From the NCBI RefSeq assembly GCF_023015805.1, contig NZ_JALKBA010000013.1, forward strand, positions 1 to 64,000: 64,000 bases of DNA. The letters run 5' to 3'. The notes under the pieces are model-generated. The model did no database searches. It saw only the letters and a list, made by a program, of their open reading frames with translations, and was not told the origin of the DNA. This DNA is from Cellulophaga sp. F20128. GTDB taxonomy: Bacteria > Bacteroidota > Bacteroidia > Flavobacteriales > Flavobacteriaceae. This document shows, piece by piece, positions 20,696-44,130 of this stretch. Within the stretch, counting starts at the first letter, position 1. Each line of letters starts with the position of its first letter. The position numbers were made by a program, and so were the translations under genes.

Positions 20696-20706
20696 ATTTA
20701 TTTTTT

Positions 20707-22083: not shown

Positions 22084-22117
22084 GATGGATACTATTTTGG
22101 TTTTTATTTATAATTGG

Positions 22118-23212: not shown

Positions 23213-23213
23213 A

Positions 23214-23813
23214 TTACTTTATTTCTCCTATTTTAATATCCTTAAAATCGATTTCCATATCTCTATCGGGATGTAACTGAAGCCCTATAGGACCTTTAGG
23301 AATGTAATTATCGCTGTTATAAGTCATTACCAAGGTGTCATTGAGCCATACCTTGTACAAACCCGCAACGGCCATTACTTTTATGGTATTCCATGCTTGT
23401 GGTTTTAGGAGCTTTTTAATATTTTCTGCCTCTACCGGGTATCCTTTTCCGGGAATATAGGGGGAAGCTGTCATATCGCGTTGCATAGAACCAGAAATTC
23501 CAAGCTGAATTTGCTGTTTGTCATTTCTAATAAATATTCCTGAATCTACCGTGCCTTGGCCAAACCTAAAATCTGTTTGAATAACAAAGTCTGTGTATTC
23601 TTTTTTTGTCCAAAGAATGGATCCTTCTTTGTTTACCCCACTTTTGGCATTCAAGATTCCATTTTTTACCGTCCACCAACTGTTATTTGATGGTACTACC
23701 CAAGCGTTGAGGTTTTTTCCGTTGAAAGCTTTTTTTAATTTGGGAGTTTGTGCCTGAACACTTAAATGAAAGCAAACGAAAACAAGCAAAACGGGAATCA
23801 AGTTATTTTTCAT
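23214..23813 (-). CDS. DUF1080 (3-keto-disaccharide hydrolase-type) secreted protein
   Basis: A 199-residue exported protein (signal MKNNLIPVLLVFVCFHLSVQAQ). It is a concanavalin-like beta-sandwich of the DUF1080 family: KAFNGKNLNAWVVP, DFVIQTDFRFGQGTVDSGIFIR and GPIGLQLHPDRDMEIDFKDIKI are characteristic. Some family members hydrolyse 3-keto-glycosides. It is the first gene of a four-gene minus-strand operon reaching 19844 with gaps of 1-34 bp. A 3-keto route (a Gfo/Idh oxidoreductase making 3-keto sugars, then DUF1080 cleavage) is a plausible joint role, inferred only. Confidence 0.83.
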   Translation of the reverse strand: MKNNLIPVLLVFVCFHLSVQAQTPKLKKAFNGKNLNAWVVPSNNSWWTVKNGILNAKSGVNKEGSILWTKKEYTDFVIQTDFRFGQGTVDSGIFIRNDKQQIQLGISGSMQRDMTASPYIPGKGYPVEAENIKKLLKPQAWNTIKVMAVAGLYKVWLNDTLVMTYNSDNYIPKGPIGLQLHPDRDMEIDFKDIKIGEIK

Positions 23814-23819
23814 AATCTG

Positions 23820-23845
23820 TTTGACAAAGAATATATCTGTTTAAA
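23820..23845 (-). promoter_or_regulatory. Candidate HTCS-type site before the DUF1080 operon
   Basis: On the minus strand this reads TTTAAAC, then AGATATATTC, TTT, GTCAAA. It resembles the 30591-30612 element (TTTTAAG, AGATATATTC, GTCAAA) except for a 3-nt insertion. It lies very close to the ATG at 23813, so the match may be chance. Confidence 0.3.
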
Positions 23846-24033
23846 GCTATCTAAAAAATAGAAACCAACCAATTTTATACTATAAAATGAAAGTTTTTGG
23901 ATGGTTTTTGCATAAAAAGTATCAAAATATATCAAAAAAGAGGAAGCTAGCATTTAAATTCAGGGGATGGAAGTCTGTACCCCAACATTTTGTGCTTCTT
24001 TTTTGTATTATTGTGAACTTAAAACCCTGTTCA

Positions 24034-24846
24034 ATGAGAAGTCTTTTAGCCTTAAGTTTATTTTTTATTTCTGGAATTGCAGTGTATGCAGGGGTAGTAG
24101 ATACCGTATCTGTTCATAGTGTTGTGATGATGAAAGACATAAAGAACGTTGTTATTTTTCCAGATAGTTATGAAAAGTCTAGCCGTGATTATCCGGTGTT
24201 GTACCTATTACACGGTGCAGGAGGCAACTACGCCCAATGGATTAAATCAGTGCCAGAATTAAAAGAACTAGTAGACCAGTATCAAATGATTATTGTTTGT
24301 CCCGACGGAGGTGTTACAAGTTGGTATTTTAATAGTCCCATTGATAAAACAATGCAGTACGAAACCTATGTTGCCTATGAATTAGTATCCTATATGAGTA
24401 ATTCTTACAGAATTTTAAAGGACAAATCGAAACACGCAATTACAGGACTTAGTATGGGGGGCCATGGGGCATTCTATTTGGCATTTAAACATCAAGATGT
24501 ATGGGGAGCAGCAGGTAGTATGAGTGGTGGTGTAGATATTAGACCCTTTCCTAATAGTTGGGATATTAACAAACGCCTAGGTTCTTTTGCTGAGAATAAA
24601 GAAAGTTGGGAGAAAAATACGGTCCTTAATATGGTTTATTTGTTAGATAAAAATGCACCTAAACTGATTTTTGATTGTGGGACAAGTGATTTTTTCTTCA
24701 GACAAAACCAAGCCTTGCACACTAAATTATTGGAGCGTAATATTCCCCATGATTATATAGAACGCCCAGGGAGTCATAATTGGGCGTATTGGAAAAATTC
24801 CATTCAGTATCAATTGTTGTTTTTTGATAAAATATTTAGAAACTAA
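24034..24846 (+). CDS. Secreted alpha/beta-hydrolase esterase, CE1/esterase-D type
   Basis: About 270 residues with a signal peptide (MRSLLALSLFFISGIAVYA). The nucleophile elbow is ITGLSMGGHGAFYLA, with Ser near residue 140, and the oxyanion strand is YPVLYLLHGAGGNYAQW. The catalytic histidine is in RPGSHNWAYW. The family includes acetyl-xylan and feruloyl esterases and S-formylglutathione hydrolases; export favours a carbohydrate esterase. The ATG at 24034 is used because the 49-residue extension from 23887 is not signal-like. It diverges from the DUF1080 operon and is followed by the PhoD-like gene after 17 bp. Confidence 0.8.
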   Translation: MRSLLALSLFFISGIAVYAGVVDTVSVHSVVMMKDIKNVVIFPDSYEKSSRDYPVLYLLHGAGGNYAQWIKSVPELKELVDQYQMIIVCPDGGVTSWYFNSPIDKTMQYETYVAYELVSYMSNSYRILKDKSKHAITGLSMGGHGAFYLAFKHQDVWGAAGSMSGGVDIRPFPNSWDINKRLGSFAENKESWEKNTVLNMVYLLDKNAPKLIFDCGTSDFFFRQNQALHTKLLERNIPHDYIERPGSHNWAYWKNSIQYQLLFFDKIFRN

Positions 24847-24863
24847 CCCACTGAAAGTAACAG

Positions 24864-26279
24864 ATGAGAAAAAATGTTTTTACAATTTTAAGTGTATTTA
24901 TTGGCTTACTATCTTCAATACAAGCACAAAAAACTGAAGCAGTATTCTTTACTAATGGCTTTAAAGTAGGGGAATTAACTAATTCGTCTGCGATAGTCTG
25001 GACCAGACTATGTGCCGCTGAAAAAGCGGTGCCTATTAGGCATCAACAAAAGGGAGCACCATTTAGGAGTCCCATTGATTTTGATAATAACATGCCGGTA
25101 CAAGAAATGGACGGGGCAGTACCTGGGGCTTTTGGGCAGGTTCGTATTAAAGTTCAGTCTAAGGATACTCTAATACAGACCCAATGGGAGTATGTTTCGG
25201 CCTATCAAGATTATACCATTAAACGTAAAATTAAGGGCTTACGGTCAAATACAAAGTACCAAATAATTATAACAGGTAGGAAAGGGCCAAAAACGCCAGT
25301 TTCAGAGGTAAAGGGTGAGTTTACTACGGCTCCCTTGCCCAATGAAATAGCTCCTGTTTTGTTTACTTCTTCAACCTGTCAGTACTTTTGGTCTTATGAT
25401 GATGCGGAACGCGGCTTTAAGATGTATGATAGTATGCTTAAGTTAGAGCCTATGTTTCACTGTCAGACGGGCGATTATGTGTATTATGATAAGCCCGGAC
25501 CTATGGCGTATAATTTGGAGTTGGCGCGACATAAATGGCATGCAATTAATGCTTGGCCTTCTTTGGTGAATTTTTACAACAACACCCCCTTGTACCTGCA
25601 AAAGGATGATCATGATGTCCTTAAAGATGATGCCATGCCTACATCTTCTGCATTTGGTGAACTAGGATTTGAAGACGGACTATGGATATGGAATGAGCAA
25701 GCTCCCATAATGGATAAATCGTATAGAACATTTCGTTGGGGAAAAGATTTGCAAATTTGGGTAGTAGAAGGCAGGGATTTTAGAAGTGATAATTCCTCTC
25801 CCGATGGTGCAGACAAGAGTATTTGGGGCAAAGAGCAGTTAGAATGGTTTAAAAAAACTGTTGAAGCATCAGATGCTACTTTTAAAATTTTAAGCTCGCC
25901 AACACCTGTGGTTGGACCAGATAGAGCGAAAGGAAAAACAGACAATCATTCTAATGATTCCTTTAAGACGGAAGGCGAATGGTTGCGTAAGTACCTTGCC
26001 GATCACGGGATGTTCGTTATTAATGGTGATAGGCATTGGCAATATGTATCGGTTGATCCGGATACTGGGCTAATGGAATTTAGTCAAGGTCCATCTAGTG
26101 ATTCACACGCCCAAGGTTGGAATAAAAATGATAAACGACCCGAACATCGGTTTCTAAGGGTTAAAGGTGGTTTTTTAGCCGTGAACGTATTCCGGGAAGG
26201 TGACACACCTATAGTAGAATTTATACACTATGATGTTGATGGAAATATTGTAAATAAGGAAACCATAAAGAAGCAATAA
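24864..26279 (+). CDS. PhoD-like phosphatase/phosphodiesterase
   Basis: A 471-residue secreted protein (signal ending ...SSIQAQ). An N-terminal Fn3-like PhoD domain (VGELTNSSAIVWTRL...YQIIITGRKG) is followed by a metallophosphatase core: QTGDYVYYDK, LQKDDHDVLKDD and the C-terminal NGDRHW supply the metal ligands. PhoD proteins release phosphate from phosphodiesters using Fe and Ca. In glycan loci they may instead act on phosphorylated glycans. It is co-oriented with the CE1-like esterase. Confidence 0.8.
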   Translation: MRKNVFTILSVFIGLLSSIQAQKTEAVFFTNGFKVGELTNSSAIVWTRLCAAEKAVPIRHQQKGAPFRSPIDFDNNMPVQEMDGAVPGAFGQVRIKVQSKDTLIQTQWEYVSAYQDYTIKRKIKGLRSNTKYQIIITGRKGPKTPVSEVKGEFTTAPLPNEIAPVLFTSSTCQYFWSYDDAERGFKMYDSMLKLEPMFHCQTGDYVYYDKPGPMAYNLELARHKWHAINAWPSLVNFYNNTPLYLQKDDHDVLKDDAMPTSSAFGELGFEDGLWIWNEQAPIMDKSYRTFRWGKDLQIWVVEGRDFRSDNSSPDGADKSIWGKEQLEWFKKTVEASDATFKILSSPTPVVGPDRAKGKTDNHSNDSFKTEGEWLRKYLADHGMFVINGDRHWQYVSVDPDTGLMEFSQGPSSDSHAQGWNKNDKRPEHRFLRVKGGFLAVNVFREGDTPIVEFIHYDVDGNIVNKETIKKQ

Positions 26280-26379: not shown

Positions 26380-29300
26380 TTATTTGGCGTTCCTTTTAAG
26401 CTTTCCAGGAGATTCTCCAAATTCTTCTTTAAAACATTTAGCAAAGTATTTGGTGTCTTTGTATCCTACCATATACCCAGCCTCAGAGATATTATACCCT
26501 TGTTCTTTAATGAGGATAGCAGCCTTGTTTAAACGCAGCGAACGGAAAAATTCTACTAGCGTTTTCCCTGTTAAATCATGGCATCTTCTGTAAATGGCAG
26601 AATAACTCATATTTAGAGTGTTGGGTAGATCTTCTAGTTTAAAATCTGTGTTTTCTAATTGGTTATTAAGTTCGGTAACCAACTCCTCCATAAAAAGTTC
26701 ATCTTTGGATTTTGCATCTATTTTTTTTGGGGAACTAATAAGGTCAGTTTTGTATTTCGAAATTGTTTTTTCTCTGGTTGAAATTATATTGTTCACCTTT
26801 AAAATTAATTCATGAAAATTAAAAGGTTTTTCAATATAAGCTACTGCTCCAGATTCTAACCCAGATAATTTAGATTTGAAGGAGTTTTTAGCGGTTAATA
26901 AAATCACGGGTATATGTTGGGTGGCCTTGTTTTTCTGTAGGGATTTACACATGTCTATACCATCCATAATAGGCATCATTAAATCACTAATTATTAAATC
27001 TGGCTTGTTTCTTTCGGCTAGTTTAAGACCTTCTTTTCCGTTTTCAGCCAGTAAAAGGTGGTAGCGGTTTTTAAATACGTCCTTTAGAAATATTTGCATT
27101 TCCACATTGTCTTCAACGATGAGGAGCGTATGTGTTTTTTCTTTAGATTCAGGCATTGCAGGTAATAAATCTACTTCATAATTCTCAATATCAGTATATA
27201 GTTTAGAAGTACTCTCAAAAATAGCTTCAGGTGAGATTTTTTCGTCTTCTGAAAATACATTATCAGCGGCAGAAATCGCTACGGTAAAACAAGTGCCCTT
27301 TTCTGCAGATGAGGTCACTTTTATTTCTCCATGGTGTAAAGATATAAGCTCCTTTGTTAATGCCAAGCCTATGCCTAGGCCCTTTTGATGCTTTCCAAGT
27401 TCCGATTGATAAAAAAGTTTAAAAATATCTTCGAGTTCATTTTTAGGAATGCCAGGCCCAGAATCTTCAACTGATATTTCGAGGGTATCTTTAACCAAAT
27501 GGGTCTTTAAGGTGATGGTCCCATTCCGGGGAGTGAACTTAAATGCATTTGAAAGTAAGTTGTAGAGTACATGTTCTATTTTATCCGAATCATACCAGAT
27601 AAATAAGTCTTCTTTGGTTGAATATTCTTTTATAAAATGTATGTTTTTAAACCGGGCCTGCTCAGAAAAAGATAGCGCAATTTCTTTTAAATGTTCAGTG
27701 AGGTTATTTCTAGAAGCCAATACCTTTAAGGTTCCTAATTCCTTATTTCTAATGGTCATTAATTCTGTAGCAATCCTTGAAAGTCTTTTTGCATTATTTT
27801 TTAAAATAAAAAGGCGTTGTTTTAAAAGCTCATTGTTGTTGGTTACGGCTCTATGCAACATATCGTCAATAGGGCCTAGGATCAAGGTTAATGGCGTTTG
27901 AATTTCATGCGACATTTTGGCAAAGAAATTCATTTTTAGTGCATAAAGCTCTTTGTCTTTTTCGTTTTGCCATGCTTTTTTTCGGATTTCTTTTTTTAGG
28001 CTAAGCCAATAACTTATGCCAATTATTATTAGGCAACTTAGTATTATATACAAAATATAAGCCCAAATACTGCCCCAAAATGTGGGTTTTATGTTCACCT
28101 TTATTTGGGTAGCTTCAATATTCCATTCACCGCGTTTTGATCCGGCTTTAACTTCAAAAACATAGGAGCCAGAAGGAATGTTGGTATAGGTAGCAATTCT
28201 GTTCTTTTTAGTTGTAATCCAGTTTTTGTCAAAACCTTTTAATCGGTATGCATAATGGTAATTAGAGTTTAATACATTGTCAATCGCTGAAAACTGGAAG
28301 GAAAACGAAGAGTGTTTTGAAGCCAAGTCAAGCTTTGTAAGATTTTCTATGGGTAGGGTTATTTTATTTTGCAATATTTGTTGCACCGGTTTATTTAAAA
28401 CCTCTATGGCATTGATGTATATTTTTGCGTTGGGTTCTTTGGTGTGCATGTCTTCCGTGTAAAAAGTATTCATGCCATCTTCTCCTCCAAAATACAATTT
28501 ACCCGTACGATCTTTATAGGCACTTCTTTTTAAAAAAGTGTTGCCTTGTAGACCATCGGTGGTGTAAAAAGATTTTAAATCACCAGTGTCTAGAATGTAA
28601 TTATGAATTCCATTTTTACTACTAATCCATAGGTTGTTGGGATCCATGATTAGGATTGCAGAAATATCGATATTTTCAAGGTTCTGATTCGTTAAAAATG
28701 ATTCTGCGGTTTTTGAAGAAATGGTGTATCTTATTAAAAAACCAGAATCACTTAACAACCAAAGATTGCCATTGTAATCGGGTTTAATAACCGCAATGTC
28801 GTAATTGTTGTGTTTTATTTCTTCTTTGGAATAGTAACTGTGGCTTTTAAAGCTCGACATAGCAAAGTTCGATTGGTTTTCCACAAATTCAAACAAGCCC
28901 CCGTTGTTAACACCTAGCCATACGGTGCCATTTTCATCTTCATTGATGGCTTGGGAAACAGTGCCTAAAAACCCATTGGTATTATAATCAAAGGTAGCTA
29001 ATAATTCTGTTGGACTAGAAAACACATGTACCCCGGCAGCGGTTGACACCCATATTCGGTCCTTGGTATCTTTAAATAAGTGCCTTACATCCGGTGAGTA
29101 TATGCCAGTAGTACTTTGGGTTTTTATTTCAGTAAACCTCTTCGTACTTGTATCAAATTTCCACAATCCATTTAAGTAAGTGGCGATCCAAATATTCTTA
29201 TCCTTATCTTCAATAAGGCCTTGAATGTATCTGCCTTTAAAAAAATTGTTCCCTTTTTTACTCGAATCGTATTGAATTTTTGTACCGTTAGTAAATACCC

Positions 29301-30468
29301 TGTTTAATCCCTTACCATCGGTTCCTATCCATGTGGAGCCATCTTCAGATTTTAAAATAGACAAAACACTTGTTGGGGTGTTGTTTTCTAATCCGTTGTA
29401 ATATTTTATTTTATTTGCATTGTTAGGCAATATATTAATTTGCCCTTTTTTTGCAACAGTCCAGATATTGCCATAAGAATCTTCATTAATAAAGGTAACC
29501 GTATTATTACTTATTGAAAATTTATTGATTTCTTCATGTTTAAAAATGGTCACGGCATTAGTTTCTGAATTTATCTTATACAAACCGTTACCATCAGTTC
29601 CTGCCCAAATATTATTGTTTTTACCTGCATAAACGTAGAGAAACAAATCATGGCTTCCATTTTTTTCAGGAGGATTAAATTGGGTAAATTCACCAAAGTT
29701 GGGGTAATAACTGTAGAGACCTTCTAGTTCCGTTGCAATCCATAATTTACCACTTAAATCACTAGTGAGTTTTATATCTTGTTTTTTATGTGTCAACGGA
29801 CTTTTTAATTCTTTAAGAATGTCTGTGTTTATGATGTGTTGGTACACTTTACCATGATCGGTGCTTATCCACATCTCATACGTGCTGGTAAAAGCAATGC
29901 TTAAAATAGTTTGGGCGAAACCATTGTTTTTTGGAAGAGTAAATAGGCTCCTTATGGTCGTGTTTTTTTCGTCATACCTATAGATGGAACCTTCTTTAGA
30001 ACCAAACCAAACGTCTTTTTCATGAGGCGTTATGGCTGTGGTGTGTTTTGGAGCATTGTTCAGTTCTATTAAAAGAGACTCCTCTGTATATTGTGAATTG
30101 AGCTTTGTTAATTTTCCACCGTATACAGCGATCCAGATATTTTCGTTATTGTCTTTTTGTAAAAGAAACTTTTGGTTGCTCGAATATTTTCCTTTAAATA
30201 TATTTTGATAGGGAACAAAAGAAAAATCGTATCCATCATATTTATACAGTCCGTCTGAGTTGGAAATCCATATATACCCCAAGCTATCTTCTATGATTTG
30301 AGAATTACCATAAAAAGTTTCTTCCAAATGCAAAAAGTTAGATTCATTTTGTGCAATTACGAAACTAGTATATAAAAGAAGCACAGATATACATAACCTA
30401 AATTTAACGTTTAAGTTGTATAGCATTCCGTCGTTTGGGATACTTTTGAATGGTATTAATCGCTGCAT
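26380..30468 (-). CDS. Hybrid two-component system regulator (HTCS)
   Basis: A 1362-residue single-chain sensor-regulator. A signal peptide is followed by a periplasmic sensor made of two-component beta-propeller repeats (IWISNSDGLYKYDG, NIWAGTDGNGLYK, TVWLGVNNGGLFEF). A Y_Y_Y domain and a transmembrane helix (about 800-822) come next. HisKA has the histidine in AKMSHEIQTPL (about 853). The HATPase has GPGIPKNELEDIF and GLGIGLA. The receiver has LIISDLMMP (Asp about 1161). The protein ends in an AraC-type HTH (about 1275-1360). HTCS proteins bind glycan fragments and switch on the adjacent PUL. A start at 30426 (MLYNLNVKF) is equally possible. It diverges from SusC. Confidence 0.92.
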   Translation of the reverse strand: MQRLIPFKSIPNDGMLYNLNVKFRLCISVLLLYTSFVIAQNESNFLHLEETFYGNSQIIEDSLGYIWISNSDGLYKYDGYDFSFVPYQNIFKGKYSSNQKFLLQKDNNENIWIAVYGGKLTKLNSQYTEESLLIELNNAPKHTTAITPHEKDVWFGSKEGSIYRYDEKNTTIRSLFTLPKNNGFAQTILSIAFTSTYEMWISTDHGKVYQHIINTDILKELKSPLTHKKQDIKLTSDLSGKLWIATELEGLYSYYPNFGEFTQFNPPEKNGSHDLFLYVYAGKNNNIWAGTDGNGLYKINSETNAVTIFKHEEINKFSISNNTVTFINEDSYGNIWTVAKKGQINILPNNANKIKYYNGLENNTPTSVLSILKSEDGSTWIGTDGKGLNRVFTNGTKIQYDSSKKGNNFFKGRYIQGLIEDKDKNIWIATYLNGLWKFDTSTKRFTEIKTQSTTGIYSPDVRHLFKDTKDRIWVSTAAGVHVFSSPTELLATFDYNTNGFLGTVSQAINEDENGTVWLGVNNGGLFEFVENQSNFAMSSFKSHSYYSKEEIKHNNYDIAVIKPDYNGNLWLLSDSGFLIRYTISSKTAESFLTNQNLENIDISAILIMDPNNLWISSKNGIHNYILDTGDLKSFYTTDGLQGNTFLKRSAYKDRTGKLYFGGEDGMNTFYTEDMHTKEPNAKIYINAIEVLNKPVQQILQNKITLPIENLTKLDLASKHSSFSFQFSAIDNVLNSNYHYAYRLKGFDKNWITTKKNRIATYTNIPSGSYVFEVKAGSKRGEWNIEATQIKVNIKPTFWGSIWAYILYIILSCLIIIGISYWLSLKKEIRKKAWQNEKDKELYALKMNFFAKMSHEIQTPLTLILGPIDDMLHRAVTNNNELLKQRLFILKNNAKRLSRIATELMTIRNKELGTLKVLASRNNLTEHLKEIALSFSEQARFKNIHFIKEYSTKEDLFIWYDSDKIEHVLYNLLSNAFKFTPRNGTITLKTHLVKDTLEISVEDSGPGIPKNELEDIFKLFYQSELGKHQKGLGIGLALTKELISLHHGEIKVTSSAEKGTCFTVAISAADNVFSEDEKISPEAIFESTSKLYTDIENYEVDLLPAMPESKEKTHTLLIVEDNVEMQIFLKDVFKNRYHLLLAENGKEGLKLAERNKPDLIISDLMMPIMDGIDMCKSLQKNKATQHIPVILLTAKNSFKSKLSGLESGAVAYIEKPFNFHELILKVNNIISTREKTISKYKTDLISSPKKIDAKSKDELFMEELVTELNNQLENTDFKLEDLPNTLNMSYSAIYRRCHDLTGKTLVEFFRSLRLNKAAILIKEQGYNISEAGYMVGYKDTKYFAKCFKEEFGESPGKLKRNAK

Positions 30469-30869
30469 TTTTTTAATAAAAATAATAACAAGGTTTTCTT
30501 TGTTAGCTCTTCTTGAAAGAAGCTGTTAAGATACTCATTCTTGGATTTAGTTACTCTTCTAATTAACGTACTTTAAGAAACTTTAAGATATTTTAAGAGA
30601 TATATTCGTCAAATGTAGGTGATATATTAGTCATTTTTATAAATTGTACTATTATGTAGTGTATTTTAGCTTAAAATGTCGCCCTTCAATTTTATAAGAT
30701 TTCTCATTTTTGATCTTTGGCTATGAAATTTTGAATTTCATATATTTTTAACAAATTTAATTGTCAGTTAATAAAATTGTTTCTTGAAAAAATAAATATG
30801 ATAATTTTTCGAAAAAAAATGAATGAAATAAGATCATAAGTTCCTAATAGTGGAACGTATTTTCTAAAA
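30469..30869. other. Intergenic control region between the HTCS gene and PUL module 1
   Basis: No gene is visible. The AT-rich stretch from about 30505 to 30720 is recognisably related to 44398-44600 upstream of the GH109-like gene. Both have a small hairpin (CTTCTT...AAGAAG type), then about 62 nt later the TTTAAGA repeats, then a TAGCTTAAAA patch. The remainder runs into the pseudogene fragment. Confidence 0.6.
30571..30610 (+). promoter_or_regulatory. Candidate HTCS operator: three 10-bp direct repeats
   Basis: CTTTAAG at 30571 and 30581 and TTTTAAG at 30591 repeat exactly every 10 bp, one helical turn, and are followed by TATATTCGTC (30601-30610). Two units with the same downstream box recur upstream of the GH109-like gene (44464-44493). 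This suits binding of an AraC-type dimer on one DNA face next to a weak -7 element (TATATTCG). The regulator is likely the adjacent HTCS, by inference. Confidence 0.55.
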
Positions 30870-31057
30870 ATGAATTCATTTATAGAATCGGCTAAGGAGA
30901 ATATTTCCCACCTATAGATGTTTATGATATTGCAGATTGGAGTGCTTTAACATTATTATCTGAGGTGTCTATGGCCAATAATACAGAGTCACAAGATTTT
31001 CCAAGAGGTAATTGAATTAAAAGAAAACCATACAACTGGATGAAGAATACCTATTAA
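30870..31057 (+). pseudogene. Decayed 3' fragment of a GH109-like gene
   Basis: This 188-bp stretch is a clear copy of the last ~65 codons of the intact GH109-like gene at 44674-46038 (compare 45841-46038). It begins ATGAATTCATTTATAG and ends with the same KRKPYNWMKNTY coding stretch and stop. It is broken by a one-base deletion, an in-frame TAG, a nine-base deletion and a TGG-to-TGA change. The similarity continues through the 43-nt leader to the SusC start. No 5' part of the gene remains. Confidence 0.9.
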
Positions 31058-31099
31058 CTAAATACAACTCAATTAACAATCAACTTAAACTAAATTTTT

Positions 31100-34000
31100 A
31101 TGAAGCAAAAATCAATTTATTATGAAGAGGAACCAAATCTGGTCTCGGCAAAAGAGAGAGATAGATATAAGTTTATACTATCTTTTGCGCTATTTTTTTT
31201 AGTATTTCAATTTATTTGGGCGAACAATACATTCGCTGAGGTAAAAGATAATTTTGTATTTCAAGAACAAACAAAAACGATAAAGGGTGTCGTGTCTGAT
31301 GAGAGCGGACAACCTGTTATAGGTGTAAATGTTTTGGTTCTTGGTACGGTTAGAGGGATGCAAACTAACTTTGACGGAGAGTATGAAGTTAAAGCAAGTA
31401 AGGGTGATATTTTAGAGTTTTCTTATATAGGAATGGAAACTAAAAAAGTTACCGTTGGTGATGATACCACAATAAACGTTGTTTTAAAAGAAGGAGCAGA
31501 GGCACTAGATGAAGTGGTTCTTGTGAGTTTTGGCGCACAGAAAAAGAAGAGCGTTATAGCATCTGTTTCAACAGTAAAGCCTGGAGAGCTTAAAATAGGT
31601 TCAAGTAACTTAACTACTGCCTTAGCGGGTAGAGTTCCAGGGTTAATCTCATACCAAAGAGGTGGAGAACCAGGGAGAGACAATGCTGAATTTTTTATTA
31701 GAGGTGTTACTACTTTTGGGTATGCTTCAAGTCCGTTGATTTTGATCGATGGTGTTGAGCTTACCATTGACGATTTACGTAGATTACATCCAGATGATAT
31801 CGCTGAATTCTCTATAATGAAAGATGCTTCGGCCACTGCATTATATGGAGCTAGAGGTGCAAATGGTGTAATTTTTGTAACCACTAAAGAAGGGGTAGAA
31901 GGCCCGGTAAAAGTTACGGTTAGAATGGAAAGTTCTTTTTCTAGCCCTACAAGAAATATTGAATTAGCAGATCCTATTACATACATGAGAATGGGTAACG
32001 AAGCTGTTAAAACGCGTGACCCATTAGGGTTGTTGCCGTATTCTTTAGAGAAAATAGAAAATACAATAGCGGGCACAAACCCCATATTATACCCAACTAC
32101 AGATTGGTATGAAGAACTATTTCAAGATTTTGCGGTAAGCAATCGGGTGAATTTTAGTTTGAACGGTGGGGGTAAAACAGCGCGTTACTACGTTTCTGTT
32201 GCAAGCAACACGGATAATGGGATACTAACTGTTCCTAAGGTAAGTAACTTTAATTCTAATGTTAAATTTAAGCAACAGAACTTACGTTCTAGTACAAATA
32301 TTAGTCTAACTGAGACATCTAAGTTAAAATTAAGCTTTAATGTTAATTTTGAAAATTATACAGGTCCAATTAATGGAGGGTCAGATGTTTATGCTCAAGT
32401 AATGAGAGCAAATCCTGTTTTGTTTAAACCTTTTTATGAGAAAGATGCTGCCAATGAATTTACGAATCATATTTTGTTTGGAAATTTTGGAAATGGAGAT
32501 TATTTAAATCCCTATGCGCAAATGGTGCGTGGGTACCAAGAGAACATTAGTAGTAAGATTATTGCACAATTAGAATTTAATCAAGATTTAAAAAAGATAG
32601 CTGAGGGATTAAATTTTAAGCTTGTTTTTAACGGTACTAAGGATGCGAGATACCAGGCTGTTAGGGGTTATAATCCTTATTATTATTCGCCTCGTAAAAA
32701 TTCCTTGACAGGAGTAACTTCTTTGACAGCTTTAAACGAAGAAAGTGGTACAGAGACATTAAGTTTTTCTCAGAGAGAAAGATTTATTTCATCCTCTACT
32801 TATGTAGAATCAAATTTGAATTATCAGAAAGAACTTGATGATAGAAATGAGGTTGGCGGGCTGTTGGTGTTTACCTTAAATGATAGACTAACCACGCTTA
32901 CAGATGGTGAGGTATTCACTTCAGATGCACTACAAAAATCATTAGCATATAGAAATATGGGAATGTCTGGGCGTTTTACCTATGCTAGAGACCAAAAATA
33001 TTTTGTGGAAGCTAGTTTTGGTTATAATGGCTCAGAAAGATTTGCAAAAGCAGAGCGTTGGGGATTCTTTCCTGCCTTGGCTTTAGGATGGATGGCTTCT
33101 GATGAAAAATTTATGGAGTCTATTGACGATGTGGTAACCAAATTAAAATTTAAAGGTTCTTATGGTTTGGTAGGAAACGACCAAATTGGTAGTGCAGATG
33201 ATAGATTCTTTTATTTATCACAAGTTAATTTAAATAGTGGAGGATATGTAACTGGTGAAAATTTTAATAATTTCCAGTCGGGTGTTAGTATTCAAAGGTA
33301 TGCAAATGATCAAATTACTTGGGAGACAGGGAAGAAAATGAATATTGGATTTGAATTAGGTTTATTTAAAAAATTAGATTTAGAAGTAGACTTTTTTAGA
33401 GAAGATAGAGAGAATATCTTAGCAGATAGAATCTTGCCATCTAGTCTAGGTTTGCAAGCAGGAGTAAGAGCCAATATTGGTGAAGCTAGGAGTGAAGGTA
33501 TTGATGGAACGGTAGTGTATTCAGATGATTTTGCAGATGGAGACGGATGGATGCAAGTTAGAGGTAACTTTACCTATGCTAAAAACAGAATAACCAAAAT
33601 AGAGGAACCAGATTATTCTGCTACACCGTGGTTATCTAGAATAGGGCAACCCATAAATCAAACTTGGGGGTATGTTGCAGAACGTTTGTTTATAGATCAG
33701 GCAGAAGTAAACAACTCTCCAGTACAAACTTTTGGCGAGTATTCTGGTGGTGATATTAAGTATACTGATATTAATGGGGATGGTAAAATTTCAGCATTAG
33801 ATCGTGTGCCTATAGGTAACCCAACAGTTCCTGAGATAACCTACGGGATGGGACTTTCTGCAGGATATAAAAATTTAGATATATCTTGTTTTTTCCAAGG
33901 ATCGGCTAATTCATCTTTTTGGGTTAATCCTTATGCAACGGCACCATTTGTTGGAGAACGACAATTGTTAAAGGCTTGGGCAGATGATTATTGGTCAGAA

Positions 34001-34306
34001 ACGAACAGAAATGAATATGCCACATGGCCAAGATTATCGAACAACTATGTCAATAATAATAACCAAACGAATACGTGGTTTATGCAAGACGGCGCTTTTT
34101 TAAGATTAAAGCAAGTTGAGATAGGATACAAAATGCCAAATGATTTGGTTTCTAAACTTAAAATGGAGAAAATAAGATTATATTTAAGTGGCACAAATTT
34201 ATTTGTAATGAGTAAATTTAAATTATGGGATCCAGAATTATCAGGGGATGGATTAGGTTATCCAAACCAAAGAGTATTTAACTTCGGTGTAAATCTTTCA
34301 TTCTAA
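31100..34306 (+). CDS. SusC/RagA-family TonB-linked glycan importer (module 1)
   Basis: This 1068-residue outer-membrane protein starts with an unusually long, charged N-region (MKQKSIYYEEEPNLVSAKER) before its signal anchor. A carboxypeptidase-D-like domain follows (TIKGVVSDESGQPVIGVNV). The plug carries the SusC signature DASATALYGARGANGVIFVTT. The barrel ends ...VFNFGVNLSF. It forms a pedal-bin transporter with the SusD that follows after 11 bp. It is only distantly similar to the second SusC at 46079, so the two modules probably take up different ligands. Its 5' leader is almost the same as that of the other SusC gene. Confidence 0.93.
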   Translation: MKQKSIYYEEEPNLVSAKERDRYKFILSFALFFLVFQFIWANNTFAEVKDNFVFQEQTKTIKGVVSDESGQPVIGVNVLVLGTVRGMQTNFDGEYEVKASKGDILEFSYIGMETKKVTVGDDTTINVVLKEGAEALDEVVLVSFGAQKKKSVIASVSTVKPGELKIGSSNLTTALAGRVPGLISYQRGGEPGRDNAEFFIRGVTTFGYASSPLILIDGVELTIDDLRRLHPDDIAEFSIMKDASATALYGARGANGVIFVTTKEGVEGPVKVTVRMESSFSSPTRNIELADPITYMRMGNEAVKTRDPLGLLPYSLEKIENTIAGTNPILYPTTDWYEELFQDFAVSNRVNFSLNGGGKTARYYVSVASNTDNGILTVPKVSNFNSNVKFKQQNLRSSTNISLTETSKLKLSFNVNFENYTGPINGGSDVYAQVMRANPVLFKPFYEKDAANEFTNHILFGNFGNGDYLNPYAQMVRGYQENISSKIIAQLEFNQDLKKIAEGLNFKLVFNGTKDARYQAVRGYNPYYYSPRKNSLTGVTSLTALNEESGTETLSFSQRERFISSSTYVESNLNYQKELDDRNEVGGLLVFTLNDRLTTLTDGEVFTSDALQKSLAYRNMGMSGRFTYARDQKYFVEASFGYNGSERFAKAERWGFFPALALGWMASDEKFMESIDDVVTKLKFKGSYGLVGNDQIGSADDRFFYLSQVNLNSGGYVTGENFNNFQSGVSIQRYANDQITWETGKKMNIGFELGLFKKLDLEVDFFREDRENILADRILPSSLGLQAGVRANIGEARSEGIDGTVVYSDDFADGDGWMQVRGNFTYAKNRITKIEEPDYSATPWLSRIGQPINQTWGYVAERLFIDQAEVNNSPVQTFGEYSGGDIKYTDINGDGKISALDRVPIGNPTVPEITYGMGLSAGYKNLDISCFFQGSANSSFWVNPYATAPFVGERQLLKAWADDYWSETNRNEYATWPRLSNNYVNNNNQTNTWFMQDGAFLRLKQVEIGYKMPNDLVSKLKMEKIRLYLSGTNLFVMSKFKLWDPELSGDGLGYPNQRVFNFGVNLSF

Positions 34307-34317
34307 ACAATTAAATA

Positions 34318-36204
34318 ATGAAAAAAAATAAAATATATATAGCAATAATTTTTATAGCAGGAATACTTTCTTCTTGTGAAAAAGATTATTTGAATGTTGT
34401 GCCAGATAATGTTGCAACCATTGATAATGCCTTTTCAAACAGGTTTAATACGCAAAAATTCTTATACACTATTTACGGTTCAATACCAGATCCGGGTACT
34501 GTTAATAACCCTGCATTAAATGGAGGTGACGAAATATGGTATCCAGAATCAGAGCGTAATAGAGCAGGGGTGAGAATTGCACAAGGTTTTCAAAGTGCTA
34601 CCCAGCCTAGTTACAATTTATGGAATGATGGTTTGTATGAAGGAATAAGAAACTGTAATATTTTCTTAAGTAGAATTGACGATGTCCAAGGCATCCAATC
34701 TTATGAGAAAACGATATGGACAGCGGAAGTTAATTTTTTGAAAGCTTATTTTCATTTTTATTTGTTACGGATGTATGGGCCTATTGTTATTAATGATGAA
34801 TTAATACCGGTTTCAGCAGCTACAGGAGATATAAATTCAAACAGAAGTTCCGTAGAAGAAACATTTACTTATATCATAGATTTGTTAGATGATGCTATTT
34901 TAGAGCTTCCATTGGAGTTGCAAAATCCAGGTGATGAATTAGGAAGAGTTACCAAACCAATTGCTGCGGCTATGAAAGCTAGAGTTTTAATGACCTATGC
35001 TAGTCCTTTATTTAATGGCAATTCTGTGTACAGTGGTTTTGTTAATGCTGAAGGGGAGCCCTTTTTTCCTGCTACTTATTCGCCTGAAAAATGGGAGAAT
35101 GCTGCTGTTGCAACTAAAGAAGCAATAGATATCTGCCATGACGCAGGAATAAGATTGTTTCAAAAGGAAGATTATATTAATAGATCAGGAAACGCCATTA
35201 CTTCAGACATTACCTTGTTAAAAGCAGGTCTGAGAAGTAGAATGACCGAGAAATGGAATTTTGAACTTGTTTGGGGACATACTGCTTCTACGAATAACTT
35301 AGAATATGAAGCAATGCCTCGTTTGTATAACTACATAAATAATCCTGTGGCTTCAAGACACTGTCCGCCTTTACGTATTGCAGAAATGTATTACTCTAAA
35401 AATGGGGTGCCAATAGAAGAGGATGTTACCTACGATTATGCCAATAGATATAAATTGAGAAGTTCTCTTGAGGCTGATAAGTATCAGGTAGAAGAAGGGC
35501 AAAGTACTGTTATTTTAAATTTTGATAGAGAAACACGTTTCTATGCAGATTTATCATTTGATAGAGGTGTTTGGTATGGCAATGGTGCCAACGATGAAGC
35601 TAATCCGTGGTTTGTTCACGCTAGAGGTGGTGAGTTTGCATCTGTTTTTGAAATTTCTCAATATTCTGTTACGGGATATTGGCCTAAAAAACTGGTAGCT
35701 ATTCCTACGCAGGTGAACACAGGTCAAAGTTTAAGTACAACACGTTATGCCTTTCCAATAATTAGATTGGCCGATTTGTATTTATACTATGCAGAGGCTT
35801 TGAATGAAAGTAAAACAGCTCCAGATGCTCAAGTGTACGAATACATTGATTTAGTTCGTGAAAGAGCAGGATTAAGTTCTGTGGTAGATAGTTGGTCTGC
35901 GTTTTCAAGCAATCCAAGTAAACCAACTACTAAAAACGGAATGAGAGAAATTATTCAACAAGAAAGAATGATTGAAATGTCTTTTGAAGGAGCCCGATTC
36001 TGGGATTTAAGACGTTGGAAATTAGCAAAAGATTATATGAACAAGCCAATTAAGGGTTGGAATGTTCTTGAAAATGATGCAGATGATTATTATACAATTC
36101 GTACATTGTATAATCCAACATATTCTGAAAAAGATTATTTATGGCCAATACCAGAAACAGAAACAATTAAAGACCCAAGTTTAATCCAAAATCCAGGATG
36201 GTAA
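34318..36204 (+). CDS. SusD/RagB-family glycan-binding lipoprotein (module 1)
   Basis: A 628-residue surface lipoprotein (signal ...GILSSCEKDYLNVVPDN). The TPR-like helical region (TAEVNFLKAYFHFYLLRMYG) and the C-terminal signature ERMIEMSFEGARFWDLRRWKLA with a final YLWPIPETE are diagnostic of RagB/SusD. It forms the lid over the preceding SusC and captures oligosaccharides. It is longer than the module-2 SusD (513 residues), consistent with a different ligand. Confidence 0.93.
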   Translation: MKKNKIYIAIIFIAGILSSCEKDYLNVVPDNVATIDNAFSNRFNTQKFLYTIYGSIPDPGTVNNPALNGGDEIWYPESERNRAGVRIAQGFQSATQPSYNLWNDGLYEGIRNCNIFLSRIDDVQGIQSYEKTIWTAEVNFLKAYFHFYLLRMYGPIVINDELIPVSAATGDINSNRSSVEETFTYIIDLLDDAILELPLELQNPGDELGRVTKPIAAAMKARVLMTYASPLFNGNSVYSGFVNAEGEPFFPATYSPEKWENAAVATKEAIDICHDAGIRLFQKEDYINRSGNAITSDITLLKAGLRSRMTEKWNFELVWGHTASTNNLEYEAMPRLYNYINNPVASRHCPPLRIAEMYYSKNGVPIEEDVTYDYANRYKLRSSLEADKYQVEEGQSTVILNFDRETRFYADLSFDRGVWYGNGANDEANPWFVHARGGEFASVFEISQYSVTGYWPKKLVAIPTQVNTGQSLSTTRYAFPIIRLADLYLYYAEALNESKTAPDAQVYEYIDLVRERAGLSSVVDSWSAFSSNPSKPTTKNGMREIIQQERMIEMSFEGARFWDLRRWKLAKDYMNKPIKGWNVLENDADDYYTIRTLYNPTYSEKDYLWPIPETETIKDPSLIQNPGW

Positions 36205-36232
36205 TTTATCTACTAACTTTAAAAAAAAAGAT

Positions 36233-37429
36233 ATGAAACATTTAATTAAATTAATAATAGTACCAGTAGTATTGGTGTTATTCGCTTGCGAGGAATATCA
36301 ACATGGACCTCTTGCTACAGATAGTTCTATTCCTTCAATTATTGAGAATGTATCCATTACACCGATAAATGGCGGACTTAGTATTGATTATGATTTACCA
36401 TCAGACAGTGACTTGCTGTATGTAAAAGCGATATATACAAATTCTAAAGGAGTAGAAGCAGAAGTAAAAACATCTGCCTTCAACAATAAGATTGAAATCT
36501 TAGGGTTTTCAGATACTTCGGAAAGAACAGTAAAATTGTATTCTGTAGATCGCTCTAGAAATAATTCAGAACCAGTTACAGTTTCGGGATCTCCATTAAC
36601 ACCACCGGTGTTTATGGTTCAGGAAACAATGGCAATTACTTCAGATTTTGGAGGAGCTAGATTTACATGGGAAAATGAATTAAATACGCCCATAACCATT
36701 GAGTTAATGACAACAAACCCAGTAACAGGAAGATTGGAAACTGTTGAAACGGTGTATACTGAGCAATCGGCTACAAGGTCTTCTATAAGAGGGTATGAAT
36801 CAGTGCCTAGACTTTTTGCCGCTGTAATTAGAGATCGTTACGATAATTTTTCTGATACCATTTATGCGCCAACGCCAGATAAATTATTAACACCTTTATT
36901 TGAACAACGTTTAGATAAATCAAAGTTCGAAAAAGTAGTTTTAGACAATGATGACAACTGGGATGCTTGGGAAGGTGATTATTGGAACTTGTTTGATGAT
37001 GATATCATGTCTATTGTACATACACAAGGAGATAAACCTAGACCTAGTATTTTGACGGTAGATTTAGGAGCAAATGTTACTTTAAGTAGGTTTAATGTAC
37101 TGCAAAGACAAACCGCTGGAGTTGGTTTTGCATATACGCACGGAAACCCTAAAACCTATAATGTATATGGTGCTAAAGAATTGCCTGGTCAAGATGGTAA
37201 TTTAGACGATTGGATTTTATTAAAAGAATGCGAGTCTATTAAGCCTTCAGGTTCTCCTATTGGAACAAATACCGATGAAGATGTAGATCATTTTGAAGCA
37301 GGAGATGAATATACTTTTGATGAAGCTGTAGAAATTAGATATTTCCGTTTTGCTGTGTATTCTACATGGGATGGAGCAGGATATATAGATTTTTCAGAAA
37401 TGACTTTTTGGGGAAATATAGTAGAATAA
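36233..37429 (+). CDS. Surface lipoprotein with DUF4959/DUF5000-type domains
   Basis: A 398-residue lipoprotein (VLFACEEYQHG). An N-terminal Fn3-like domain (SITPINGGLSIDYDLPSDSDL) is followed by a second beta-sandwich. The C-terminal discoidin-like region (PSILTVDLGANVTLSRFNVLQRQ, ...EIRYFRFAVYSTWDGAGYIDFSEMTFWG) matches DUF5000. Such proteins follow SusCD and act as surface glycan-binding partners in the position of SusE/SusF. The intergenic gap to SusD is 28 bp. No catalytic residues are apparent. Confidence 0.82.
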   Translation: MKHLIKLIIVPVVLVLFACEEYQHGPLATDSSIPSIIENVSITPINGGLSIDYDLPSDSDLLYVKAIYTNSKGVEAEVKTSAFNNKIEILGFSDTSERTVKLYSVDRSRNNSEPVTVSGSPLTPPVFMVQETMAITSDFGGARFTWENELNTPITIELMTTNPVTGRLETVETVYTEQSATRSSIRGYESVPRLFAAVIRDRYDNFSDTIYAPTPDKLLTPLFEQRLDKSKFEKVVLDNDDNWDAWEGDYWNLFDDDIMSIVHTQGDKPRPSILTVDLGANVTLSRFNVLQRQTAGVGFAYTHGNPKTYNVYGAKELPGQDGNLDDWILLKECESIKPSGSPIGTNTDEDVDHFEAGDEYTFDEAVEIRYFRFAVYSTWDGAGYIDFSEMTFWGNIVE

Positions 37430-37450
37430 TAAAATTTAAGAAATATAATT

Positions 37451-39307
37451 ATGAAAAAAATTAAAATATATATTTTACCATTAAGTATATTACTTCTTTT
37501 TGCATTCTTTTCGTGTAATGATACGTATGAGTTTCATGAGGAGTATGTTAAGGATGGTGAAATAATTTATGCGTCTAAGGTAGATTCTTTACGAACCCTA
37601 CCAGGTGACGGTAGAATTGAAATAGCTGGATATTTAACCAAAGGATTTACTATTAACGAAATAACCGTATTTTGGGATAATGGCGAAAATAGTCAAACCT
37701 TTGCGTATGCTAAATCGCAAAATGAAACCGATCCTTTGGCTTTAATTGTAACAGGTTTAGAGGAAAAATCGTATGAATTTGATGTGTATTCAAAGGATAA
37801 AGAAGGTAATAAATCGATAAAAGTAACTGTTTTTGGAACGGTCTATGGAGAAACCTATAGAGGCAATTTAGAAGCTAGAGAATTTAATTCATTTACGTTC
37901 AATAGCGATGAAAGTGTTAGCGTGACTTTAAAGCCAAGTAGTGAATTAACACGATCTACAGAAATTAAGTATACTAATTTAAGTGGAGAAGAGATTGTTG
38001 TAATAGTTATGGCAGATGAGTCTGAAGGTACTTTAGAACAAGTAAATACAATGCTTCCTATTACCTACAGAACCTATTATGTGCCAGTTGCTGCTAGTGA
38101 AGATGGAGAAGAAGCGGCTATTGATGAGTTTGATTCTGATTGGTCTACCTATGAATTTCCTGGTGTATTTTCGTCAATTTTTACAAGCATGACGTTAGAG
38201 CCAATTTCAGGAGGAGTAATGGCAAATTGGGAGAATACAGCAAATGATATGTTGACATTCGAATTTAAAAATGTAGATAAACAAGATCAAGAGGTAGTAA
38301 CTACTGTTACATCATCTGAGTCTGCAGGTACGTTTACATTTACACCAATGAAATCGGAAGAACAAGAGGTTGAAATTATGATTTCAGATATCTATGGAAA
38401 TTCACAATCAATGTCTTATACCGTAACTCCTTTAGCAGCAGCTGGAAAAGGGAACTGGACTATTGTTGACTTTTCAACTGAAGAGGCCGGTGGTGAAGGT
38501 CCTGTTAATGGTTATGCCACAGCAGCCATTGATGGAGATACAAGCACGTTTTGGCATTCAAAATGGACAGGTTCAGGATCTTCTTATCCGCATCACCTAA
38601 CTATTGATATGGGTGAAGAAAAAGATATTGCTGGTTTTGAAATATTCAGAAGAAATGGAAACGGTAGCGGTGCCACGATGCATGAATTTTGGGTGAGTAG
38701 TGATAATGTAACCTTTACCAAGATTGCTACATTGGACGCGGCCTTAGACTCTAATGATGGATTTTTAGCTCCTGCTGATGTGGTTACTACGGCGAGATAC
38801 GTAAAGTATGTTGCAACAGCTGGTCCAAGTTCATTTACTTTTTTAGGTGAATTAAATGTTATTGAATCATTAGATAATACAGATTGGTCAATAGTCGACT
38901 TTTCATCAGAAGAAGCTGGTGGAGAAGGTCCAGTAAATGGATACGCTACTGCTGCAATAGACGGAGATTTAGCAACGTTTTGGCATACCACTTGGTCAAC
39001 TGGGTCACCAGATTATCCACATCATCTTACTATAGATTTGGGAGAAGAGAAAGGTATTGCTGGTTTTGAAATATTTAGAAGAATGAATAATGGACAAGGC
39101 GCTATTAAGCATGAATTTTGGGTGAGTAGTGATAATGTTACCTTTACACAGGTATCAACATTGGATGCTGCTATGACTACCAATAATGGATATTCAGATT
39201 ATGCAGATGCTGTAACTACAGCAAGGTATGTAAAGTATGTTGCAATAGAAGGACCGTATAATTACACTTTTTTAGGTGAATTAAAAGTATTTGGAACAAT
39301 AGAATAG
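37451..39307 (+). CDS. Surface lipoprotein with DUF4998-like domain and two discoidin domains
   Basis: A 618-residue lipoprotein (LFAFFSCNDTYEFHEEY). The N-terminal part resembles DUF4998 (YASKVDSLRTLPGDGRIEIAG). The C-terminal part has two F5/8 type C (discoidin) domains in tandem at about residues 335-477 and 479-618, each about 143 residues and roughly 70% alike. Shared strings are EEAGGEGPVNGYATAAIDGD, GFEIFRR and HEFWVSSDNVTFT. Discoidin domains bind carbohydrates, so this is a glycan-binding protein with doubled avidity. A rho-independent terminator follows at once. Confidence 0.85.
   Translation: MKKIKIYILPLSILLLFAFFSCNDTYEFHEEYVKDGEIIYASKVDSLRTLPGDGRIEIAGYLTKGFTINEITVFWDNGENSQTFAYAKSQNETDPLALIVTGLEEKSYEFDVYSKDKEGNKSIKVTVFGTVYGETYRGNLEAREFNSFTFNSDESVSVTLKPSSELTRSTEIKYTNLSGEEIVVIVMADESEGTLEQVNTMLPITYRTYYVPVAASEDGEEAAIDEFDSDWSTYEFPGVFSSIFTSMTLEPISGGVMANWENTANDMLTFEFKNVDKQDQEVVTTVTSSESAGTFTFTPMKSEEQEVEIMISDIYGNSQSMSYTVTPLAAAGKGNWTIVDFSTEEAGGEGPVNGYATAAIDGDTSTFWHSKWTGSGSSYPHHLTIDMGEEKDIAGFEIFRRNGNGSGATMHEFWVSSDNVTFTKIATLDAALDSNDGFLAPADVVTTARYVKYVATAGPSSFTFLGELNVIESLDNTDWSIVDFSSEEAGGEGPVNGYATAAIDGDLATFWHTTWSTGSPDYPHHLTIDLGEEKGIAGFEIFRRMNNGQGAIKHEFWVSSDNVTFTQVSTLDAAMTTNNGYSDYADAVTTARYVKYVAIEGPYNYTFLGELKVFGTIE
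38456..39304 (+). repeat. Tandem discoidin-domain coding repeat
   Basis: Two coding units starting at 38456 and 38885, a period of 429 bp or 143 codons. They are clearly similar at DNA level as well as protein level (for example, identical GTGAGTAGTGATAATGT stretches), pointing to a recent internal duplication. Confidence 0.8.
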
Positions 39308-39327
39308 TTTTTTGAATTAGTTTTAAA

Positions 39328-39356
39328 AGGAGGGTTGGAGACAACCCTCTTTTTTT
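39328..39356 (+). terminator. Rho-independent terminator after the discoidin lipoprotein
   Basis: Stem GAGGGTTG / CAACCCTC around the loop GAGA, followed by seven T residues. It separates SusCD and their lipoproteins from the giant BNR protein gene, which may then need its own promoter or read-through. Confidence 0.85.
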
Positions 39357-39389
39357 ATAGCCAAAAACCCTTGAAACCCAACCTAAGCC

Positions 39390-43418: not shown

Positions 43419-44116
43419 AAAATTTAATTTGGACAGTATGTTTGTGTATTGGTATGCTTTCTTGTAGTAAGAATAGTGATGCACCAGAGGAAGAAAAATC
43501 CGTAGTAAAACCAGAGGTAGCTTCTTTGATGTTTCCATTAAACAATTCAGAATGTGTGGATGGTGCAATAATCAGCTCGGCTAAAAGTAAGGTTACTTTT
43601 GAGTGGAATACGGCAAATAATGCCGATGGATACGAGCTAAAGCTAAAGAATTTACAAACCAAAATTACAACGGGTCATTTATCATCTAAGGCAGAGATTT
43701 CAATTACGCTAGATAGAGGTGCTGCTTATTCTTGGTATGTTGTTTCCGTGAATAATGGATCTGGGGAAAAGGTAGAAAGTGGAGTGTGGAAATTTTACAA
43801 TGCAGGGGAAGGTGTTACGGCTTATGCGCCTTTTCCAGCGGATGGTGTTTCTCCCTTATCAGGGGCGCAAATAGCGCACCTAGCTGCTGGAATTACCTTA
43901 GAATGGACTGGAAATGATGTTGATAACGATATTGAAGGTTACGATATTTATTTCGGAGAAACTTCTAATCCAGAACTCTATCAAGAAAATTTAACTGCCA
44001 GTAGCCTTGAAAATGTAATCATTAATCAGGATACAAAGTACTACTGGAAAATAAAAACCAAAGATAAACGGGGTAATGTTTCGTATTCAGACGTATTCCA
44101 GTTTAAAGTGAATTAA
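43415..44116 (+). CDS. Small lipoprotein with two Fn3-like domains
   Basis: A 233-residue lipoprotein (CLCIGMLSCSKNSDAPEEE). Two beta-sandwich domains of the Fn3 type are suggested by VTFEWNTANNADGYELKLKN...YSWYVV and ITLEWTGNDVDNDIEGYDIY...YYWKIKTKD. It overlaps the BNR protein gene by four bases (ATGA), so translation is coupled and the two proteins probably work together on the surface. No enzymatic motif is visible. A perfect hairpin follows at 44131. Confidence 0.75.
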   Translation: MKNLIWTVCLCIGMLSCSKNSDAPEEEKSVVKPEVASLMFPLNNSECVDGAIISSAKSKVTFEWNTANNADGYELKLKNLQTKITTGHLSSKAEISITLDRGAAYSWYVVSVNNGSGEKVESGVWKFYNAGEGVTAYAPFPADGVSPLSGAQIAHLAAGITLEWTGNDVDNDIEGYDIYFGETSNPELYQENLTASSLENVIINQDTKYYWKIKTKDKRGNVSYSDVFQFKVN

Positions 44117-44130
44117 GGCAAAAAATGAAG

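Follow-up and report, generated by a model that had tools for sequence, protein, structure and literature searches.

The DNA analysed here is a window of 64,000 nucleotides from Cellulophaga sp. F20128 (contig NZ_JALKBA010000013.1), and "the window" always means this whole stretch. It contains two modules, each with a SusC/SusD pair recognized by Pfam, and the gene of a hybrid two-component sensor/regulator (HTCS) adjoins them. These features mark the region as a probable HTCS-controlled polysaccharide utilization locus (PUL). Its parts are the following:

26380-30468, minus strand: HTCS, the only intact one of both cassettes (Pfam Reg_prop, Y_Y_Y, HisKA, HATPase_c, Response_reg, HTH_18)
30386-30591, no strand assigned: HTCS start and control region, copy 1 (repeated at 44280-44484)
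30605-30633, plus strand: operator-like direct repeat, copy 1 (TTCGTCA-15-TTAGTCA; strict form)
30840-30856, plus strand: terminator-like hairpin, downstream of operator copy 1 and upstream of the scar
30862-30887, no strand assigned: near-palindrome across the 5' boundary of the scar (self-inverted BLAST match, 92% over 26 nt)
30870-31057, plus strand: GH109 3'-end relic, the "scar" (frameshift, 9-nt deletion, TGA at 31013-31015)
31016-31076, plus strand: 61-nt run identical to 45997-46057
31058-31099, plus strand: SusC leader, copy 1
31100-34306, plus strand: SusC1 (PF13715, Plug, barrel)
34318-36204, plus strand: SusD1 (Pfam)
36233-44116, plus strand: rest of module 1 (by Pfam DUF4959/5126/5000, DUF4998/F5_8, Sortilin-Vps10/F5_8 with Por_Secre_tail, and fn3 proteins)
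44276-44350, minus strand: decayed HTCS 5' end (~25 codons) of cassette 2
44280-44484, no strand assigned: HTCS start and control region, copy 2
44488-44515, plus strand: operator-like direct repeat, copy 2 (CTCGTCA-15-ATCATC; lax pattern only)
44674-46038, plus strand: intact GH109 (Gfo/Idh/MocA fold, PF21252; ORF listed from TTG 44647, ATG at 44674)
46039-46078, plus strand: SusC leader, copy 2
46079-49261, plus strand: SusC2 (PF13715, Plug)
49289-50830, plus strand: SusD2 (Pfam)
50838-56267, plus strand: rest of module 2 (50838-51524, 51577-52662, 53245-54675, 54957-56267)

The intact GH109 belongs to its family by a Rossmann domain (PF01408, E = 8.5e-11) and the C-terminal domain (PF21252, E = 2.1e-80). 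The activity of the family is that of an alpha-N-acetylgalactosaminidase. Sulfatases adjoin module 2 (56280-59297), which suggests a sulfated glycan as substrate. In module 1, the gene of the DUF4998 protein has an internal duplication towards its 3' end (38456-38874 and 38885-39303, 75% identical DNA; Pfam finds two F5/8 type C stretches). In module 2, a 182-nt tandem repeat occupies 52841-53282 (2.4 copies at 96%), and a related stretch follows the next gene (54785-54867). Elsewhere in the same genome there is a second SusC1-type gene (51%; G000:C23:19050-22106).

Directly in front of the SusC1 leader lies a decayed piece of GH109. The self-BLAST of the window aligns 30870-31121 with 45841-46096 at 83.6% identity over 262 columns (E = 6e-73). 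With 30480-31120 as query against the 4.17-Mb assembly (E ≤ 0.001), the only matches besides the query itself are 45841-46095 and 44374-44559. An earlier note, made from the sequence alone, had claimed that the last ~65 GH109 codons recur here with a frameshift, two stop changes and a 9-bp deletion. The recurrence, the frameshift (a 1-nt deletion near 30905) and the 9-nt deletion hold, but the second stop does not. The one true nonsense change is TGG to TGA at 31013-31015, and the TAG at 30915-30917 is read in frame only owing to the frameshift. Homology to an intact paralogue together with these disabling changes makes the scar a pseudogene relic of GH109. Among the matches listed in a sample of 397 genomes, a short frame and stops are combined only in the window scar.

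The scar has decayed unevenly. Its first 144 aligned columns contain 22 mismatches to the intact GH109 and are followed by the 61-nt identical run, which comprises the last 13 GH109 codons, the stop and 19 nt of leader (Fisher p = 3e-4 for the two stretches). The leader of ~40 nt is alike up to the SusC start, although SusC1 and SusC2 are 22-24% identical over aligned residues; here the earlier note was right.

Upstream of the scar, the trail of GH109 ends. The part of GH109 that can be detected significantly at copy 1 is the 3' 188 nt only. Searching 30700-30869 for the GH109 start by alignment gave a score of 49, within the range of shuffles (mean 43.3, maximum 60). The remainder of the genome contains no good match to this sequence (at best E = 0.008 over 29 nt). 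Three small inverted repeats (30721-30741, 30840-30856, 30862-30887) lie close together in the unmatched sequence upstream of the scar. Folding of 30700-30900 gives z = −1.5, with 15 of 200 shuffles equally good, and no Rfam family reaches its gathering threshold in 30300-46300.

A second block is repeated as well. It spans the HTCS start and the intergenic region between HTCS and GH109 (30386-30591 versus 44280-44484, 69.9% identity, E = 6e-16, window self-BLAST) and has the same order relative to GH109 in both copies. Within copy 2, tblastn detects the HTCS N-terminal relic at 44276-44350 (48% over 25 aa), which is weak alone (E = 0.003) and collinear with the control-region DNA match. Two collinear repeated blocks imply that the window holds two copies of an HTCS/GH109/leader arrangement. 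Their losses are complementary: copy 1 retains HTCS but has lost all of GH109 except the 3' end, and in copy 2 GH109 is whole and a decayed start is all that is left of HTCS. From the self-BLAST offsets, the net loss of GH109 in copy 1 is ~1.1 kb.

The orthologous place in Cellulophaga fucicola DSM 24786 (L035) provides an outgroup. Gene order there is g17159-g18220-g19322-HTCS/GH109-SusC-SusD-g54957-g59353-g60423, that is, the flanks of the window around one cassette with an intact GH109. The earlier note had proposed looking in sister strains for an intact GH109 before SusC, and C. fucicola has one, between HTCS and SusC. The C. fucicola SusC is of a third type (27% identity to SusC1, 29% to SusC2). 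An HTCS orthologue at E ≤ 1e-250 occurs in one of the 17 other genomes of the genus. In the window, six genes lie between g19322 and HTCS (19844-26279, including a Gfo/Idh/MocA protein and a PhoD-like phosphatase); they are absent there in C. fucicola.

In a tree of GH109 tails, with the identical 3' end left out, the scar and the GH109 of the window itself form one group (UFBoot 98; branches 0.55 for the scar and 0.00 for the window GH109). This grouping speaks for a duplication, or a homogenisation, later than the divergence from C. fucicola. It argues against the import of module 1 together with a foreign GH109, unless conversion has erased the signal. Both the C. fucicola locus and the tree support the history put forward in the earlier note: a duplication of control region, GH109 and SusC leader, followed by loss of the GH109 body and the placement of another SusCD. 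That history needs one refinement: the start of HTCS was part of the duplicated unit too. Alternatively, a whole second cassette could have arrived and been homogenised later, since both SusCD modules of the window are found behind complete HTCS/GH109 pairs elsewhere. Hence the order of events may have been duplication and then SusCD replacement, or receipt of a second cassette and then homogenisation.

The same front end is found in many relatives. In a sample of 80 named GH109 loci, 39 have HTCS on the minus strand followed by GH109 and SusC on the plus strand, five have one of these neighbours only, and 36 have other surroundings. For 41 cassettes (the 39 loci plus G264 and G427) we compared pairwise identities. 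HTCS and GH109 correlate with a Spearman rho of 0.44 (reached in 0 of 2000 permutations) and HTCS and SusC with a rho of 0.25 (0 of 2000). For GH109 and SusC, rho is 0.10 (46 of 2000). The nearest HTCS belongs to the nearest GH109 in 20 of the 41 cassettes, the nearest SusC in 8. SusC identity is below 40% in 60 of the 106 locus pairs with GH109 at least 85% identical; five incomplete SusC ORFs were kept in the pairwise set, and because they are incomplete their identities are unreliable (L042, L049, L056, L078, L087, with L049 the worst). Arenibacter echinorum (L041) and Arenibacter sp. F20364 (L044) illustrate the pattern: HTCS is 71% identical, GH109 96% and SusC 26%, and the leaders of ~200 nt align up to the SusC start. 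SusC relationships are thus uncoupled from the upstream neighbour, as expected under modular SusCD exchange. After the GH109 stop and before SusC, eight Arenibacter loci (L039, L041-L045, L050, L102) contain, as seen by eye, a terminator- or attenuator-like inverted repeat of the kind CCCATTTCATGAAAATGGAATGGG.

Purifying selection accounts for most of the high protein identity of GH109. In seven of nine Arenibacter pairs, GH109 and HTCS differ by no more than 0.10 at four-fold sites. GH109 is clearly higher than HTCS in L041/L044 (0.69 versus 0.47) and clearly lower in L041/L045 (0.39 versus 0.53). We rejected the idea that recombination keeps GH109 alike everywhere; it receives no support from these seven pairs, nor from four of the five GH109 pairs that share a genome.

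Both modules of the window occur in other settings. Module 1 stands behind an intact HTCS/GH109 pair in G264, Lutibacter litoralis, A. latericius and G427. G264 has SusC1 at 79%, SusD1 at 81% and the same order through fn3, followed by g53245 and g54957, which are module 2 genes in the window; L. litoralis (L177) keeps the module 1 order without an fn3 match. Module 2 stands behind an intact pair in six Arenibacter loci (L039, L041, L042, L043, L050, L102) and in two Aestuariibaculum loci (L078, L087), the latter two with the gene order of the window and a SusC split over two ORFs. Module counts are lower bounds, because two candidates were scored per genome in the searches for SusC1 and SusC2 relatives: among the matches listed, at least nine distinct SusC1 relatives (≥62%) lie outside the window, four behind an intact GH109, one behind a GH109 scar, two behind FecR/ECF sigma genes and two beside other genes, and four of the five SusC2 relatives listed in the 397-genome sample have no GH109 in the flanking ~1.5 kb. 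The module 1 relatives behind FecR/ECF sigma genes are found in Wocania ichthyoenteri and G218. In loci L226 and L227, module-1-type SusCD operons have FecR and ECF sigma genes in place of HTCS/GH109, with SusC frames ~90 residues longer. Both modules are thus also found away from GH109: they change regulators, and GH109 is one of several settings.

Scars are not confined to the window. In Arenibacter aquaticus, HTCS/GH109-SusC-SusD and an FG_GAP protein gene are followed by a relic of the GH109 tail (L038:20210-20317), which immediately precedes a module-1-type operon; this scar is too decayed to receive useful support in the tree. Two of the 18 genomes in the Arenibacter set, G474 (L247) and G476 (L248), have a GH109 relic with several stops between HTCS and SusC; in L248 the start and the tail of GH109 survive and its middle is missing. 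The SusCs behind these two scars are 97% identical, so they probably represent one event. Including the window, there were at least two independent GH109 losses, probably three. Every scar-bearing genome has another, intact GH109. The GH109 survey of the Arenibacter set left out a partial GH109 of 201 aa (G457:C17) and six rows at 28-34% identity, and weak tail matches were dropped or are doubtful (L042 and L092, E = 0.06 and 0.56; L221 and L224, E = 0.19-3.3).

Within genomes, GH109 genes can be almost the same in front of very different transporters. G474 and G476 contain GH109-SusCD arrays, which terminate at contig breaks. Two contigs of G474 begin inside GH109 and share the GH109 3' end and leader at 99.2% over 492 nt, before SusCs that are 36% identical. 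A like GH109 pair in G476 (96.3% over 1202 nt) precedes SusCs that are 34% identical. In both genomes identity stays high through the leader and the SusC N-terminal extension and drops just after an LEEVV stretch, presumably the TonB box. According to the part of PMC7782687 consulted, PF13715 is the N-terminal extension, which lies upstream of the TonB box.

The most extreme pair comes from W. ichthyoenteri. Two GH109s in loci ~440 kb apart match perfectly over 1361 nt (L036:10004-11364 and L037:10001-11361); the match begins directly behind the start codon and ends within the stop codon. Around them the HTCS genes are 64-67% identical and the downstream genes differ, and neither locus contains an N. 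This identity fits gene conversion, and could also be a repeat collapse in the assembly. It is the one identical case among five same-genome GH109 pairs; the other four are 75, 75, 83 and 87% identical, so homogenisation is no general rule. Break points in the pairs examined lie downstream of the GH109 stop and upstream of the SusC TonB box. The earlier note had seen a recombination joint in the conserved leader. The within-genome identity of GH109 supports a joint, but not the leader alone: it comprises GH109 and leader, and in two genomes also the SusC N-terminal extension.

In 41 HTCS-GH109 intergenic regions (39 relatives and both window copies), a strict direct repeat of WTNRTCA half-sites 20-23 nt apart is present in 11 on the GH109 strand and in none on the other (shuffles: mean 0.16, maximum 2). 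A lax form is present in 13 on the GH109 strand and in one on the other (mean 0.29, maximum 3). The motif was picked by eye from the same sequences, which makes the contrast optimistic. One HTCS could run both SusCD operons if this repeat is the HTCS operator. The hairpin at 30840-30856, a consensus match (1 versus a shuffle mean of 0.2), argues against simple read-through into SusC1, and so against the simplest form of such shared control. Consensus promoters were discarded (4 versus a shuffle mean of 6.0); Flavobacteria use promoters of another kind.

We propose that the scar is what remains of the GH109 of a first cassette, in a tandem of two cassettes that underwent reciprocal loss. Each cassette would have consisted of HTCS on the minus strand, operator, and GH109, leader, SusC and SusD on the plus strand. 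We assign this reading a probability of roughly three in four. It builds on what the genomes display: sequence relics, an orthologous intact locus, an uncoupled SusC phylogeny and near-identical GH109 joints within genomes. From these sequences we infer recombination events at the GH109 joint. The two cassettes would have arisen or met by homologous recombination through GH109 and leader. Cassette 1 would then have lost ~1.1 kb net of GH109 by internal deletion and cassette 2 its HTCS, each losing what the other supplied. The remainder would be one HTCS and one GH109, which both SusCD operons may share, and either operon has retained an operator-like repeat and a leader of its own. The same would hold more widely in Flavobacteriaceae: at many loci HTCS, GH109 and leader stay conserved as a front end, and the SusCD modules downstream of it are swapped for different ones.

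A rival history is that the GH109 3' end and the SusC leader alone were copied before SusC1, and that a whole GH109 never stood there. It agrees with the 188 nt that are detectable and with 30700-30869, which resembles the GH109 start no better than shuffles do. Nevertheless we think it unlikely: the upstream control region is duplicated too, in the right order, relatives have a whole GH109 between HTCS and SusC, and the scar of L248 has both GH109 ends with the middle lost. A comparably small chance goes to selection having kept scar and leader, for example as 5' UTR of SusC1 or as a leader RNA. Such a function would explain the 61 unchanged nucleotides beside a stretch with 22 mismatches in 144, and in Arenibacter the ~200-nt leaders with a hairpin do stay similar before different SusCs. 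Yet the leaders of the window and of C. fucicola are very different, and neither the Rfam search of 30300-46300 nor the unremarkable folding of 30700-30900 points to such an RNA.

Tandem SusCD operons are common in PULs, and a plain tandem duplication with rapid divergence of SusC1 and SusC2 would require no module exchange. We regard it as very improbable, because the two SusCs, so different from each other, are each 60-80% identical to relatives in other genera that have the same downstream genes. Slightly less credible still is an invertase-driven SusC/SusD shufflon as in Bacteroides fragilis. A repeated leader before different SusCs recalls such a system, and inversions at SusC/SusD clusters are reported in the part of PMC4747536 available to us. 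The joint copies of the window, however, are direct and not inverted (self-BLAST, both strands), the homology has the length of a gene and not of a short site, and none of the 18 window proteins that were scanned contains a recombinase domain.

Reciprocal loss from two tandem cassettes remains our preferred reading, and it has parallels. In B. thetaiotaomicron 8736 and VPI-5482, SusC and SusD of the fructan PUL are 49% and 39% identical behind a promoter region that is 91% conserved, and the SusCD of strain 8736, moved with its promoter to another strain, needed the recipient HTCS (PMC5967196, in the sections consulted). The resemblance to our case lies in the divergent SusC/SusD behind a conserved promoter region and would extend to the dependence on the recipient HTCS. 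In the fructan PUL, a single SusCD slot varies between strains and the enzymes belong to GH32, whereas here the front end includes the whole GH109, extends across genera, and is accompanied by tandem arrays in some genomes and by gene scars. The B. fragilis shufflon (Tsr0667) also rearranges SusC/SusD genes by recombination, but does so, as far as the part seen of PMC4747536 describes, by site-specific inversion with an invertase, in contrast to the direct repeats and gene-length homology found here. Domain swapping of Bacteroides HTCS is likewise a modular change of PULs, proposed in the accessible part of PMC11253607 to occur during duplication or lateral transfer; it concerns the regulator, unlike the transporter slot considered here.

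SusCD swapping as such is already known. What would be new is GH109 as a recombining joint that leaves scars. At the level of titles and abstract openings we found no description of GH109-led SusCD exchange in the literature, which does not demonstrate its absence from print. More tentatively, and with less confidence than we would need to prefer it, GH109, leader and SusC N-terminal extension could form a dedicated joint for homologous recombination: a self-homogenising socket into which Flavobacteriaceae would plug SusCD modules under one HTCS, and where tandem gain and loss would leave GH109 scars. This would be a cassette platform without an integrase.

The way in which PULs acquire new glycan specificities is usually deduced from gene content. 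The loci described here add a candidate joint with definable break points, namely the GH109 stop, the SusC start codon and the end of the SusC N-terminal extension. Arrays whose GH109 copies are nearly identical may be intermediates, a seemingly homogenised pair is separated by a long distance on the same chromosome, and the scars are end products. Break points, intermediates, homogenised pair and scars together make a mechanism of SusCD exchange testable, and provide a sequence mark by which past exchanges may be found.
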